A stretch of 21,134 nt of DNA, from positions 1 to 21,134 of the IMG/VR virus record IMGVR_UViG_3300008264_000031, one strand, 5' to 3'. This DNA is from a virus. Shown piece after piece: positions 8-8,294 of this stretch. The notes under the pieces were generated by a model, which did no database searches, had not been told where the DNA came from, and saw only the letters and a program-made list of their open reading frames with translations. The position numbers and the translations under genes were made by a program. Every line of letters begins with the position of its first letter. Position 1 is the first letter of the stretch.

Positions 8-24
8 ATCACCAACATGGTGCA
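8..24. promoter_or_regulatory. NtrC-like enhancer site 1
   Basis: The 17-bp dyad ATCACCAACATGGTGCA matches 12 of the 14 fixed positions of the NtrC (NRI) consensus as I know it, TGCACCA-N3-TGGTGCA. It is the best of three similar sites. Its centre is about 200 bp upstream of the start predicted from the sigma-54 promoter at 189-205, within the usual range for sigma-54 enhancers. The consensus match is direct; binding by NtrC is inferred. Confidence 0.65.
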
Positions 25-38
25 TTTGAGGGTATCAC

Positions 39-55
39 TTCACCATTATAGTGCA
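39..55. promoter_or_regulatory. NtrC-like enhancer site 2
   Basis: TTCACCATTATAGTGCA matches 12 of 14 fixed positions of the NtrC consensus. It lies 31 bp (about three helical turns) from site 1. That is close to the spacing I recall between the two strong NtrC sites upstream of enterobacterial glnA, which bind dimers cooperatively on one DNA face. Confidence 0.6.
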
Positions 56-59
56 TATT

Positions 60-76
60 ATCACCAATACAGTGCA
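60..76. promoter_or_regulatory. NtrC-like enhancer site 3 (weaker)
   Basis: ATCACCAATACAGTGCA matches 10 of 14 fixed positions. It lies 21 bp (two helical turns) from site 2. The shared core of the three copies is TCACCA-N5-GTGCA at 9-24, 40-55 and 61-76. The copies could alternatively be iterons or operators for an unknown phage protein. The helical phasing argues for cooperative protein binding in either case. Confidence 0.5.
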
Positions 77-79
77 CCC

Positions 80-161
80 TGTGGATAACTCTAGGAATTG
101 TGGATAACTATTTAGCCTGTGGATAACTACACAGTCACACTCTAGAGATGCTTGTGGATAA
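80..161 (-). other. Cluster of four perfect DnaA boxes; candidate replication origin
   Basis: TGTGGATAA, the complement of the high-affinity DnaA box TTATCCACA, occurs exactly at 80-88, 99-107, 118-126 and 153-161. All four copies have the same orientation. The first three are spaced 19 bp start to start and the fourth follows after 35 bp. Three copies extend to TGTGGATAACT. I saw no other exact copy in the window; one random copy of a given 9-mer on either strand would be expected about 0.16 times in 21 kb. The cluster suggests a host DnaA-dependent origin, or DnaA acting as a regulator between the enhancer sites and the sigma-54 promoter. No clear AT-rich unwinding element is visible next to it. 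The boxes are seen directly; origin function is inferred. Confidence 0.75.
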
Positions 162-188: not shown

Positions 189-205
189 TTGGCACACTGC
201 TTGCG
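189..205 (+). promoter_or_regulatory. Sigma-54 (RpoN) -24/-12 promoter of the early operon
   Basis: The sequence TTGGCACACTGCTTGCG fits the sigma-54 consensus YTGGCACR-N4-TTGCW at every fixed base except the last. The invariant GG (191-192) and GC (203-204) have the required 10-bp gap. The start of transcription would be near 216, giving a leader of about 30 nt before the first gene at 248. The stretch AAAGTTGGCACA (185-196) resembles the sigma-54 promoter of glnA in enteric bacteria as I recall it. Sigma-54 promoters need an enhancer-binding activator, and three NtrC-like dyads lie upstream at 8-76. A weak sigma-70 reading (TTGGCA at 189) lacks a good -10 at 17 bp. Confidence 0.75.
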
Positions 206-247
206 TAGTAACATGCGTACCAACCAACCAACTAAGGACATAGCAAC

Positions 248-448
248 ATGAAAGAACAACTCATTCACATCACATACAAAGACCAATACGGGATCCACTC
301 ATACTCACTAGAGGGCTTTGTAGACGGTGACTTTGTAGGCTTTGCCAGTGCCTCTAAAGACAGGGTACAACATGAGCTTGCATGGTACACTGACAACTTC
401 GATGGCTTACCTGTATCATTTACCACAATCACAGAGGAATTAAAATGA
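248..448 (+). CDS. Hypothetical protein, first gene of the early operon
   Basis: This is a 66-residue acidic protein with no family I recognise. It is mostly predicted soluble, rich in aromatic residues and Asp/Glu, and has no signal peptide or membrane segment. The ATG at 248 follows an AAGGA ribosome site at 234-238. It is the first gene behind the sigma-54/NtrC-like control region, so it would be among the first phage proteins made. Small first genes in T7-like phages often act on host enzymes, but nothing in this sequence shows such a role. Its stop overlaps the ATG of the next small gene (ATGA, 445-448). Confidence 0.75.
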   Translation: MKEQLIHITYKDQYGIHSYSLEGFVDGDFVGFASASKDRVQHELAWYTDNFDGLPVSFTTITEELK

Positions 449-2886: not shown

Positions 2887-4495
2887 ACCTAAGCCAAGTG
2901 AGTCTAAGCTTATCAAGCACATTGCCTGTGATGCCTGTGGTAGCTCAGATGCCAATGGCTTATACGATGACAATCACACGTATTGTTTCTCATGCAATAC
3001 TTACTACAATGAAACTGATGCTGATGAACTGTCAGTTATGCAACAAGCAGTAGCACCACGAAAGACCATGATGTTAGACATCAAAGGAACCATCAAGTCG
3101 ATACCTGATAGAGGTATCACCCTTCAAACCTGTGAGAAATATGGAGTTACACAAGATAATGGACAGCACTTTTATCCTTACACTGACGATGCCGGAGGAG
3201 TTGTTGCAGCAAAACTTAGACGAGTGGCAGACAAAACTTTCAGCATTCTTGGAACATTCACGAATGCTAGGCTTTTCGGACAGCAGCTCTTTCACGCTGG
3301 TGGCAAGGCAGTCACCATCACTGAAGGAGAACTTGACGCTCTAGCAGCTTTTCAGATGAATGGTAGCCTCTACCCTGTGGTGTCAGTCAGAAACGGTGCA
3401 CAGGCAGCTTTAAAGGACTGCAAGGCACAGTATGAGTGGCTAAACTCCTTCGATAGCATTGTGATCTGCTTTGATGCTGATGAACCCGGTAAGAAGGCAT
3501 CTAAGGAAGTGGCTGAACTGTTCGGTCAGAAGGCTAAGATTGTGAAGCACTTGAGTGGCTACAAAGATGCCTGTGACTACCTCATTGCAGGTGCTACCAA
3601 AGAGTTTGTGAATGAGTGGTGGAGAGCTGAGGTTTACATCCCAGATGGCATCATCAATGCTGCATCTCTGTGGGAGGAAGTCATTAAACCTGAGGCTAAG
3701 GCTGAGGCTATGTATCCGTGGAAGGGCTTGAATAAGCTTCTCTATGGTATCAGACCTTCAGAGTTAATCACAGTCACTGCAGGTTCAGGACTAGGTAAGA
3801 GTCAATTTCTGCGAGAGATATTGTTCAATATACTGAACACTACGAAGTGGAACATTGGAGGTTTATTCCTTGAGGAGTCCACTCGAAAGACAGCTCGAAG
3901 TATCATGAGCTTACACGCTAACAAACTACTGCACTTACCTGACACCCCAACAACTGAACAGGAGCTTAAAGATGCTTTCGATGCAACACTTGGCACTAAT
4001 CGTGTGTATCTCTTTGACCACTTCGGTAGCAGTGACGTTGATAACATTGCCAACAGAATCCGATACATGGCTAAAGCTTGCGATTGCAGGGTTATCTTTC
4101 TTGACCACATCAGTATTGTTATATCTGGTCAAGACAATGGAGATGAGCGTAAGGCTATTGATAACATGATGACGAAGCTTCGTACACTGGTGCAAGAGCT
4201 GGAGATTACCTTGATCTGTGTCAGTCACCTTCGTAGACTGCAAGGGAATCAAGGTCACGAAGATGGTGGTAGTGTCTCATTGTCGCAGCTCAGAGGCTCA
4301 GGTGCTATTGCTCAACTGAGTGATGCTGTGATTACCTTGGAGCGTAACTCGATGGCAGCAGATGACAATGAGAGACATCAGACTAAGATCTCAGTGGCTA
4401 AGAATCGTTACAATGGTTATACAGGCCCAGCTTGTGTGTTGAAGTACGACATGGATACTGGACGCATGGTGGAGATGTTGGAGGAAGTACTATGA
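2864..4495 (+). CDS. T7 gp4-like DNA primase-helicase
   Basis: This 543-residue bifunctional replication protein would unwind DNA ahead of the polymerase as a ring and make RNA primers for the lagging strand. The N-terminal zinc-binding domain shows C22-x2-C25 and C41-x2-C44. The Toprim-type primase core has E154 in TEGELDAL and D204/D206 in FDADEPG. The DnaB/RecA-like helicase has a Walker A loop GSGLGKS at about 307-313, Walker B (VIFLDH) at about 408 and a C-terminal QLRGSGAIAQLSD segment followed by KNRYNGYTG. T7 gp4 has 566 residues, so it is full length. ATG 2864 is preferred over ATG 2837 because of GGGAGG upstream and less overlap. Confidence 0.95.
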   Translation: MKLNLVRKPKPSESKLIKHIACDACGSSDANGLYDDNHTYCFSCNTYYNETDADELSVMQQAVAPRKTMMLDIKGTIKSIPDRGITLQTCEKYGVTQDNGQHFYPYTDDAGGVVAAKLRRVADKTFSILGTFTNARLFGQQLFHAGGKAVTITEGELDALAAFQMNGSLYPVVSVRNGAQAALKDCKAQYEWLNSFDSIVICFDADEPGKKASKEVAELFGQKAKIVKHLSGYKDACDYLIAGATKEFVNEWWRAEVYIPDGIINAASLWEEVIKPEAKAEAMYPWKGLNKLLYGIRPSELITVTAGSGLGKSQFLREILFNILNTTKWNIGGLFLEESTRKTARSIMSLHANKLLHLPDTPTTEQELKDAFDATLGTNRVYLFDHFGSSDVDNIANRIRYMAKACDCRVIFLDHISIVISGQDNGDERKAIDNMMTKLRTLVQELEITLICVSHLRRLQGNQGHEDGGSVSLSQLRGSGAIAQLSDAVITLERNSMAADDNERHQTKISVAKNRYNGYTGPACVLKYDMDTGRMVEMLEEVL

Positions 4496-4904: not shown

Positions 4905-5079
4905 CCTAGACACCATAGCTGGTAGAATGCTTGACTTGGAGACTAAGTACTATGAAATGCAAGACAAGTATCAGTTACTTATTCACCACTATGAAGACTT
5001 GAAAGCAGAATATGAAGCGTATCGTATTGGACATAGAAACAACCTTAGATCACAACACGATTTGGATGGTAGTAACTAA
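4897..5079 (+). CDS. Coiled-coil hypothetical protein overlapping the polymerase gene
   Basis: This is a 60-residue protein whose residues 5-45 carry heptad-like Leu/Tyr spacing (MLDLETKYYEMQDKYQLL) typical of a coiled coil. An AGAGGAAAG ribosome site precedes ATG 4897. Its last 68 bp overlap the first codons of the DNA polymerase gene in another frame, an unusually long overlap for this genome. Because the polymerase start is fixed by its exonuclease motif, either both frames are used or this one is chance. The good ribosome site favours real. Confidence 0.55.
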   Translation: MLDLDTIAGRMLDLETKYYEMQDKYQLLIHHYEDLKAEYEAYRIGHRNNLRSQHDLDGSN

Positions 5080-6727
5080 GGACATTGACAGCGGAGAAGT
5101 GAACGTATGGAAAGCAGCAGACAGCCTCGTGGAGTATTTAAAGGACGTTACATTGATAGTAGCCCACAACGGGATAAGCTTCGATTTCTCGATACTCAAC
5201 AGGCTTTGGAGTACGAAGATTCGCTTGAACCAAGTGTTCGATACACTGATAGCCTCAAGACTGCTAGATCCCTCAATAGAGAACGGTCACAGCTTAGACG
5301 CTTGGGGCGAGAGATTGAAGGTGAAGAAGGTTAACTACAAAGGAGTGTGGCAATGGTTAATGGACAAACGAGAGGAGTACAAGGGTGAGTGCTTTGATGT
5401 TCCTCACATGGGTCTTCTTGAGCATTATTGCATTAGGGACGTTGAGGTCACTTGCAATCTTTATAAGCATCTTACTGATGAATTCACTAAGAAGGACTTT
5501 TCACAAGAAAGCCTTACTCTTGAACATAAGGTAGCATCTATCATTGCTGAACAGGAACGTCATGGATTCAAACTCGATCAAGCCTATACAACCTGTTTAC
5601 TTGCTGACATCAAGGGAAAGATGGCAGGAATCTATGAACAGATGCAAGAGAGATGGCCTCCAGTCATCACACAAAGGTTCCACAAAACCAGTGGAAAGCC
5701 CATTAAAGACTGCATTGATACTTTCAATCCCGGAAGTAGAAAGCAAATTGGAGAGAAACTGATGGAGCTAGGATGGAAACCTAAGGTGTTCACTGAGAAG
5801 GGTCAGGCTATTGTCGATGAGTCTGTACTTGCTAAGGTTCCTCTACCTGAGGCTCAGATGATTGCTGAATACTTGATGCTGCAGAAACGAGTAGCTCAGA
5901 TTGAAAGCTGGCTAGAGGCTGTGGGTAAGGACGGTAGAGTTCACGGTAAGGTAATAACGAATGGAGCTGTAACTGGTAGGATGACACACAGTAGTCCTAA
6001 CATGGCACAGATTCCTAATGCTGGAAGTATTTATGGCCCAGAGTGCAGAGAATGTTGGACTGTGGAAGCAGGTAACGTATTGGTTGGTTGCGACGCTAGT
6101 GGCCTTGAGCTTCGTATGCTTGCACATTATATGAAAGATGAAGATTATGTTAAAACGGTCACTGAAGGATCATCAAAGGATGGAACTGATGTTCACACGC
6201 AGAACCAGAAAGCTGCAGGTTTACAGACAAGGGATCAAGCGAAGACATTTATTTACGCATTCCTATACGGTGCAGGGCCAGCTAAGATTGGCTCCATTGT
6301 CGGTGGTAATTCTAAAGCGGGACAGAAACTTATCGATGCCTTTCTTACGAACACACCAGCCTTACAACGTCTTAGAAGTACGGTTAGCAGATATGCGGGT
6401 AAGGGCTTTGTACCGGGGCTTGATGGTCGTAAGATATGGGTACGCTCGGAACACGCAGCTCTTAATTCCCTCCTTCAAGGTGCAGGTGCAATCGTAATGA
6501 AGAAAGCTTTAGTACTATTTTATGATAAGACTAAGGCTAACAAGTGGCCTGTGAAGCTGGTAGCTAATGTCCATGATGAATTTCAACTTGAAGTTCCTAA
6601 GATATATGCTACAATGGTAGGTGAGGCTGCAAAGCAAAGTATCGTTGAAGCTGGTGAACACTTTAAGCTTCGTTGTCCATTAGACGGGGAGTTTAAAATT
6701 GGTAACAACTGGCGTGAAACACATTGA
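5012..6727 (+). CDS. Family A DNA polymerase (T7 gp5-like) with 3'-5' exonuclease
   Basis: This is a 571-residue replicative polymerase. The N-terminal proofreading domain shows Exo I (D7-x-E9 in VLDIET), Exo II (HNGISFDF) and Exo III (YCIRD, about 144-148). The polymerase domain has motif A with D361 (VGCDASGLELR), motif B (R407, K411, Y415 and Y419-G420 in RDQAKTFIYAFLYG) and motif C (H521-D522-E523). The residue equivalent to E. coli Phe762 is Tyr415, as in T7. T7 gp5 has 704 residues, so this enzyme is about 130 residues shorter and may lack a long thioredoxin-binding insertion. It starts right at the Exo I strand, so ATG 5012 is safe despite overlapping the preceding gene. Confidence 0.95.
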   Translation: MKRIVLDIETTLDHNTIWMVVTKDIDSGEVNVWKAADSLVEYLKDVTLIVAHNGISFDFSILNRLWSTKIRLNQVFDTLIASRLLDPSIENGHSLDAWGERLKVKKVNYKGVWQWLMDKREEYKGECFDVPHMGLLEHYCIRDVEVTCNLYKHLTDEFTKKDFSQESLTLEHKVASIIAEQERHGFKLDQAYTTCLLADIKGKMAGIYEQMQERWPPVITQRFHKTSGKPIKDCIDTFNPGSRKQIGEKLMELGWKPKVFTEKGQAIVDESVLAKVPLPEAQMIAEYLMLQKRVAQIESWLEAVGKDGRVHGKVITNGAVTGRMTHSSPNMAQIPNAGSIYGPECRECWTVEAGNVLVGCDASGLELRMLAHYMKDEDYVKTVTEGSSKDGTDVHTQNQKAAGLQTRDQAKTFIYAFLYGAGPAKIGSIVGGNSKAGQKLIDAFLTNTPALQRLRSTVSRYAGKGFVPGLDGRKIWVRSEHAALNSLLQGAGAIVMKKALVLFYDKTKANKWPVKLVANVHDEFQLEVPKIYATMVGEAAKQSIVEAGEHFKLRCPLDGEFKIGNNWRETH

Positions 6728-7346: not shown

Positions 7347-8070
7347 CCGTCAGGTGACTGATAAGCCTACTGAGGCTATTGTAGATGCTGACTTTTTAGT
7401 TTATAAAGTTGGCTTCTCCAATGAGGAAGAAGAAGAACAGTGGGCACTAAATCGACTCACAGAGTGGTTTACCGACATCATCTATATGCGTCTGAAGTGT
7501 GATGACTACAGAGCTTGGATTACAGGTAAAACTAACTTTAGATTTGAGATAGCTACCACTGTTCCTTACAAAGGTAATCGTAAAGATGCTCCCAAGCCTA
7601 AACATTACGATGCTCTCAGAAACCATCTCATGAAGCTCGGTGCTAAGATGTCTGAGAACGAGGAAGCTGATGATGCTGTAGGCATAGCGTCCACTGAAGG
7701 TAACTACTGGATCGTCCACGTTGACAAGGATCTAGATCAGTTACCGGGGTGGCACTATAATCCTGTAAAGGATGAGGAGTATTATGTTACTGAGTTTGAA
7801 GGCTTGTACAGTTTCTATAAACAGATACTGACAGGTGACAGAGTTGATAACATTGAAGGTATACGAGGTATTGGCCCTGTAAAGGCTGATAAGATTCTCA
7901 AAGACTGTACAACCGAAGAGGAATTATATGCAGCTTGTATCAAGGCTTATGACAGCAATACTGACAGGGTACTGGAAAACGGTAAGCTCCTATGGCTAAG
8001 AAGAAAAGCAAACCAGATGTGGCAACCTCCTTTGAACTTGCAGGATCAAAGTGGTACGTTAACTACGTAG
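7336..8070 (+). CDS. 5'-3' exonuclease (FEN/T7 gp6 type)
   Basis: This is a 244-residue nuclease of the FEN/5'-nuclease superfamily, which removes RNA primers, degrades host DNA and processes recombination ends. Acidic metal-site residues appear in order: D17 and D19 in VDADFLVY, E110-A-D112-D113 in the EADDAVG loop, D130 and D132 in HVDKDLDQL, and D168 and D171 in GDRVDNI. A helix-hairpin-helix follows (IRGIGPVKADKIL, about 176-190). ATG 7336 is preferred to the upstream in-frame GTG 7309, which would overlap the preceding gene by 38 bp. Its 3' end overlaps the next gene by 79 bp. Confidence 0.9.
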   Translation: MSSNRQVTDKPTEAIVDADFLVYKVGFSNEEEEEQWALNRLTEWFTDIIYMRLKCDDYRAWITGKTNFRFEIATTVPYKGNRKDAPKPKHYDALRNHLMKLGAKMSENEEADDAVGIASTEGNYWIVHVDKDLDQLPGWHYNPVKDEEYYVTEFEGLYSFYKQILTGDRVDNIEGIRGIGPVKADKILKDCTTEEELYAACIKAYDSNTDRVLENGKLLWLRRKANQMWQPPLNLQDQSGTLTT

Positions 8071-8294
8071 TGCACATGGATGATATGGGTAAGTGTGACC
8101 CTGAGAAGCAAGTCATTTCTATTCGTATGGACATGAACAAGCAGACCACTGAGCAAACCTTCTACCATGAGTTAGTTCATGCCATTATGTTTACAATGGG
8201 TAAGCTTACACATGATGAAGAGTTTGTAGATACCTTTGGAGCTTTCTTGCACCAGTATCATATTACTAAGGAGTACCATGAAGCCGAAGCGTAA
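7992..8294 (+). CDS. Small HExxH protein, putative zinc metallopeptidase
   Basis: This is a 100-residue protein with H59-E-L-V-H63, the zinc-protease active-site motif, preceded by YHELVHAIMF-type hydrophobic spacing. Further Glu/Asp residues (E76, E77 and D80) could supply the third ligand, as in gluzincin-type minimal proteases. The N terminus is Lys-rich (MAKKKSKP). If active, it may cleave a host or phage protein. It could also be a degenerate zinc-binding protein. It is tucked between the exonuclease and endonuclease genes, overlapping both (79 bp with the former, 17 bp with the latter). Similar small HExxH proteins occur in other podoviruses as I recall, without a tested role. Confidence 0.7.
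   Translation: MAKKKSKPDVATSFELAGSKWYVNYVVHMDDMGKCDPEKQVISIRMDMNKQTTEQTFYHELVHAIMFTMGKLTHDEEFVDTFGAFLHQYHITKEYHEAEA

Follow-up and report, generated by a model that had tools for sequence, protein, structure and literature searches.

Known and Proposed Phage Use of Host Nutrient Regulators

The reading of host nutrient state by phages is known mainly from cyanophages, where it has been shown for PhoB and predicted for NtcA; the use of host PhoBR by cyanophages was reportedly described by Zeng and Chisholm in 2012. In phage lambda, host DnaA acts at pR, which provides a precedent for a role of DnaA; the locus described here shares with lambda pR/ori the host DnaA sites near an early promoter and (here putative) origin, but pR is a sigma-70 promoter and NtrC is not involved. 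Cyanophages employ the PhoBR two-component system of the host for phosphate (PMC10976474), and cyanomyoviruses have predicted NtcA sites (PMC3037559). As in the PhoBR case, phage genes are here placed, by prediction, under a host nutrient two-component regulator; there, however, it is phosphate that is sensed, through PhoB, at individual genes of T4-like cyanophages, whereas here NtrC and sigma-54 would act where the early region of a short-tailed phage begins. The NtcA case likewise proposes that a phage uses the nitrogen-stress regulator of its host, but NtcA is an unrelated regulator, does not involve sigma-54, and its predicted sites are spread over the genome. In E. coli, one NtrC target adjoins the Qin prophage gene ydfK (PMC8743547); NtrC binding, which is predicted in the present case, thus lies beside a phage gene in both, but ydfK belongs to a resident prophage and was taken from a list of in vitro binding sites; it is not part of a region from which an infecting phage controls its early genes.

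The glnA-type NtrC enhancer of proteobacteria is matched in box sequence, in the paired spacing of about three helical turns, in enhancer distance and in the −24/−12 motif. Unlike that system, the phage region has three imperfect dyads which lie farther upstream and a cluster of DnaA boxes that separates enhancer and promoter; where the bacterial system has genes for nitrogen assimilation, early genes of the phage follow. The published NtrC box of E. coli, TGCACCAnnnTGGTGCA, is the same as the motif found here, and the motif of the sigma-54 holoenzyme is TGGCACnnTTnTTGC (PMC8743547). The open-access literature searched, outside of which subscription papers mostly fall, yielded no description of NtrC and sigma-54 governing the early region of a phage; such control would be a variant of a known phage strategy, that is, of the one represented by cyanophage PhoB and, by prediction, NtcA.

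The Predicted Control Region of the Early Genes

The window, by which the whole analysed stretch of 21,134 bases is meant, is a virus record of an uncultivated short-tailed phage (IMG/VR IMGVR_UViG_3300008264_000031). Its rightward genes encode a primase-helicase, a DNA polymerase, an exonuclease, an endonuclease, a phosphoesterase and a B12-type ribonucleotide reductase; endolysin and virion proteins are among the products of the leftward genes. Located between the exonuclease and endonuclease genes is one (7992–8294, plus strand) for a 100-aa protein with an HExxH motif (HELVHA), possibly a small metallopeptidase. Bases 1–240 are non-coding and contain, in this order, three dyads, four DnaA boxes and a −24/−12 site; downstream of these come a ribosome-binding site and the first of the genes, a small one. 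The features are:

8–24, unstranded: dyad 1, predicted NtrC-type box ATCACCAACATGGTGCA; 12/14, centre about −200
39–55, unstranded: dyad 2, predicted NtrC-type box TTCACCATTATAGTGCA; 12/14, centre about −169
60–76, unstranded: dyad 3, weaker predicted NtrC-type box ATCACCAATACAGTGCA; 10/14, centre about −148
80–88, minus strand: DnaA box 1, exact TTATCCACA; conserved in the clade
99–107, minus strand: DnaA box 2, exact TTATCCACA; mostly conserved in the clade
118–126, minus strand: DnaA box 3, exact TTATCCACA; mostly conserved in the clade
153–161, minus strand: DnaA box 4, exact TTATCCACA; mostly conserved in the clade
189–205, plus strand: predicted sigma-54 −24/−12 promoter TTGGCACACTGCTTGCG; GG-N10-GC, 11/14 specified positions
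216, plus strand: predicted transcription start, from geometry (GG at −25/−24, GC at −13/−12)
234–238, plus strand: ribosome-binding site AAGGA, from sequence; precedes the first gene
248–448, plus strand: first early gene, 66 aa, function not assigned; another gene at the same place in the relative L002
2837–4495, plus strand: primase-helicase (PHROG 239, E 3.3e-187); downstream of and co-oriented with the promoter
5012–6727, plus strand: DNA polymerase (PHROG 17, E 5.9e-150); downstream of and co-oriented with the promoter

The dyads were scored against TGCACCA-N3-TGGTGCA (14 specified positions), and the positions and match counts given for them in the initial annotation are confirmed, as is the phasing: the starts are 31 and 21 bp apart, which keeps the sites in helical phase, and the same spacings recur in relatives. 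The predicted enhancer fits the 17-bp box in more than one copy, about 100–200 bp upstream of a sigma-54 site. The sigma-54 promoter claimed by the annotation corresponds to a real site, which conforms to the −24/−12 motif YTGGCACGRNNNTTGCW with the GG-N10-GC spacing exact; since its GG lies at 191–192 and its GC at 203–204, the start is placed at about 216, and the resulting dyad centres bear out the proposed distance of 150–200 bp. On the promoter strand of the window, no sigma-70-like site was seen upstream of 388. While dyads and promoter of this earlier picture of the control region stand, the DnaA boxes, which are integral to it and more widely conserved, had been missed.

It appears probable (roughly 0.8) that phosphorylated NtrC of the host, probably with DnaA, activates sigma-54-dependent transcription of the early operon. 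NtrC would bind the three dyads as an enhancer, loop over the DnaA-box cluster and activate the host sigma-54 RNA polymerase at 189–205, from which transcription would begin near 216 and reach the early and replication genes; DnaA on its four boxes would probably shape the loop, mark a replication origin, or both. As NtrC is phosphorylated in nitrogen shortage, the early programme would be coupled to the nitrogen status of the host. Should this hold, the nitrogen cascade of the host would gate infection where waters are poor in nitrogen, which would link viral lysis to the nitrogen cycle.

Conservation and Recurrence of the Module

Taken singly, neither kind of site is exceptional: the window contains 11 sigma-54 sites of this kind against 7.8 expected, and the two dyads with at most three mismatches on both its strands are not above chance (shuffle mean 1.31). 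The cluster of dyads is exceptional; none of 2000 Markov-random windows with the dinucleotide make-up of the window had even two sites of at least 12/14 within 60 bp.

Conservation of the dyads in relatives, which the annotation had named as a check, is strong, with fixed positions and scores in 14 distinct sequences. These come from 18 loci, the window included, in which the three dyads lie at −174, −143 and −122 from TGGCAC. Dyad 1 is identical in 14/14 of the sequences; the left half of dyad 2 varies (TTCACCA, TGCATCA, TGCTCTA, CTCACCA, CGCATCA), its score still being 11–12, and dyad 3 scores 10–11 across the clade relatives, while registers shifted by 1–3 bases score at most 6 at each of the three dyads. 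The sigma-54 site of the window (11/14) is the weakest of the clade; those of the relatives L036 and L002 score 12–13. From about −200 to the promoter the identity to L002 is 0.82–0.95, as against 0.46–0.55 just upstream and 0.43–0.53 downstream of this island, which stops at the promoter; behind the same promoter L002 has a different first gene. In a more distant group (L090, L100, L112, L113) there are two dyads, at −172 and −120, and L099 has three, at −153, −132 and −112.

Among 2.9 million viral contigs, an NtrC-type site combined with a sigma-54 promoter (CACC-N5-RGTGCA, 95–125 bases, TGGCAC-N5-TTGC) was found in 55 stretches, versus 1 with the sigma-54 spacing off by one base and 5 with the dyad spacing off by one base; close relatives are among the viral matches, and these counts are not independent. 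In 50 distinct sigma-54 sites recovered by this search, the consensus is also followed at positions that the pattern left free (Y before TGGCAC in 90%, R after TGGCAC in 96%, W after TTGC in 86%). The composite loci form several unconnected groups (judged by proteins shared at 50% identity within the DNA covered), among them one of HMO-2011 type by its portal, one related to Lauvirus by its terminase, and one temperate phage. Several carry perfect 14/14 boxes, and some unrelated groups are without DnaA boxes. As the same arrangement is present in related and unrelated phages, it is probable that these phages sense the nitrogen status of the cell ahead of switching on their genes. The module was not seen in HMO-2011, CRP-1, CRP-2, CRP-403, HTVC104P, Lau218, ICBM2 and MW202701 (for five of them, in the first 50 kb).

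Two of the matches, L165 and L171, lack a real dyad and apparently arose by chance. L180, L181, L194 and L197 were considered as host nitrogen operons, which was rejected; the locus examined, L180, belongs to a temperate phage and has genes for integrase and terminase. L180, like the other three, has two adjacent NtrC-type boxes with a sigma-54 site, and the contig identifiers of all four look like those of isolate genomes, which makes them a possible cultured test case. A further set of loci (L169, L173, L176, L182, L186, L187, L193, L195) has, next to perfect NtrC boxes, sigma-54 sites which face each other and make up a near palindrome, for example TGGCACGCTTCTTGCCTAGCAAGATCCGTGCCA.

DnaA Boxes and a Possible Origin

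The four DnaA boxes, which are exact and co-oriented, lie within 82 bp between dyads and promoter. A DnaA box followed after 15–45 bases by a sigma-54 site was found in 76 stretches of the viral contigs, versus 2 in a control with wrong sigma-54 spacing, and in none of 399 bacterial genomes; from these numbers, the combination looks like a phage invention. Association of the promoter with DnaA is wider than that with NtrC, as a marine-type group has DnaA boxes without NtrC dyads. The boxes may bend the DNA between enhancer and promoter, mark an origin, or both.

If marking an origin were the main function, the region would primarily serve replication: the dyads would be iteron-like repeats for an initiator of phage or host, DnaA would be loaded at the boxes, and transcription would come second. 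Four exact boxes in a single orientation would suit an origin, as would the dyads, which also constitute an 18-nt direct-repeat family of 72–83% identity, and the DnaA clusters which related phages keep without dyads or sigma-54 site. However, no initiator was recognized among the scanned proteins, and unrelated phages that have no DnaA boxes carry the dyad as far from sigma-54 sites as an enhancer would be; further, the controls show that the exact sigma-54 spacing is needed, and distant relatives retain the palindrome while losing the repeat flank. A primary origin is, for these reasons, unlikely, although of the alternatives it survives best; an origin role as such is compatible with activation by NtrC and sigma-54 and not exclusive of it.

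The Bacterial Counterpart and the Probable Activator

When the gap was set to 50–80 bases, the composite gave 6 matches in 399 Pseudomonadota genomes, and the reversed pattern 1. Four of the six precede glutamine synthetase genes, of which Pfam confirms three and the fourth was recognized from its sequence; of the other two, one precedes a gene for a NirB-like reductase and one another gene. The promoter before one bacterial glutamine synthetase (L217, GTTGGCACACTGTTTGCT) is close to that of the window. The resemblance to the glnA enhancer, to which the initial annotation had pointed, is borne out by the host-spaced composite marking glutamine synthetase in most of its bacterial matches.

The sigma-54 activator domain (PF00158) was found in none of 25 viral records (the window and 24 others, some of them fragments), which makes NtrC of the host the likely partner. 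Most simply, the phage would use both NtrC and the sigma-54 polymerase of the host, and we infer that NtrC and sigma-54 are present in this host, presumably a proteobacterium. Relatives of the polymerase in genome contigs are found only at Rhizobiales loci (35–39% identity). Isolates are far removed: the best terminase matches listed have 26–31% identity, and the portals of related groups about 22–27%. As far as sequence can decide, the host NtrC control put forward in the annotation is well supported by conservation, by the spacing controls, by the bacteria as positive control and by the published box.

The enhancer might instead be bound by a different activator of the host, one from the NtrC superfamily whose site is similar; the signal would then not be nitrogen. 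Throughout the clade, the same two outer bases of dyad 1 read AT in place of the TG of the box, dyad 3 scores only 10, and the marine group with arrays of sigma-54 sites, being without NtrC dyads, must use something else, if anything; all this would be in keeping with such an activator. On the other hand, the core CACCA-N3-TGGTGCA with its 3-base spacing is that of the NtrC box, in bacteria the composite stands before glutamine synthetase genes and a NirB-like one, and perfect boxes occur in other groups, which leaves a different activator slightly less probable still than a primary origin. That the resemblance is due to chance, and dyads and promoter-like site are non-functional, would fit the single-site counts, which in the window are not above shuffles, but is very improbable given the clustering of the dyads, the conservation island, the spacing controls and the recurrence in unrelated groups.

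Possible Exchange of the Module among Relatives

Control by NtrC and sigma-54, the preferred explanation, is not essential to the lifestyle of these phages, because dyads and sigma-54 site are missing in L010, L012 and L016, the polymerases of which are 93% identical to that of the window, and which have DnaA clusters. In L036, with a polymerase 90% identical, dyads and sigma-54 site are present. Most relatives without the module (L010, L012, L016, L043, L046, L054, L055, L056, L057, L080) have, downstream of their DnaA clusters, a GATAAT-type −10 element that is preceded, at about 10 bp, by a direct repeat TGTAAG-N5-TGTAAG. A direct repeat just before the −10 element is the layout of promoters controlled by OmpR-class response regulators. 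By its sequence, the putative TGTAAG-repeat promoter resembles these and occupies the same position as the NtrC/sigma-54 module, which suggests that more than one two-component system of the host can be used at this position.

More tentatively, and with somewhat more doubt than belief, a large group of uncultivated short-tailed phages may be pictured in which the early programme starts from a module, absent from the bacterial chromosomes searched, where an NtrC enhancer (the nitrogen signal of the host) and DnaA boxes (its replication initiator) converge on one sigma-54 promoter, the module being exchanged between close relatives for promoters of other host response regulators and expanded in marine relatives into arrays of up to nine sigma-54 sites; these would represent interchangeable sensors of host physiology.

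In the marine-type group, a stretch of about 350 bp surrounding two DnaA boxes contains five to nine near-perfect sigma-54 sites, all on the same strand (nine in L122 and L154; eight in L124, L134 and L138; seven in L155; six in L085, L092, L123, L141, L142, L144 and L153; five in L089). Among the copies, the spacer letters vary and the consensus letters stay. The sites are too closely packed for simultaneous occupancy of all of them; they might act as promoters or as decoys, or belong to an origin. Candidate NtrC dyads in the gap-15 marine group (at about −167/−219) coincide with an unrelated conserved element, CTTTTTTGTG, and were not counted. Upstream of the control region, many relatives have conserved a further element, CTTTTTTGTGNNCTT followed by GAGGCTCC, located in L002 at about 4130–4155, in L036 at about 250–275, in L010 at about 2145–2165, and present in others as well.
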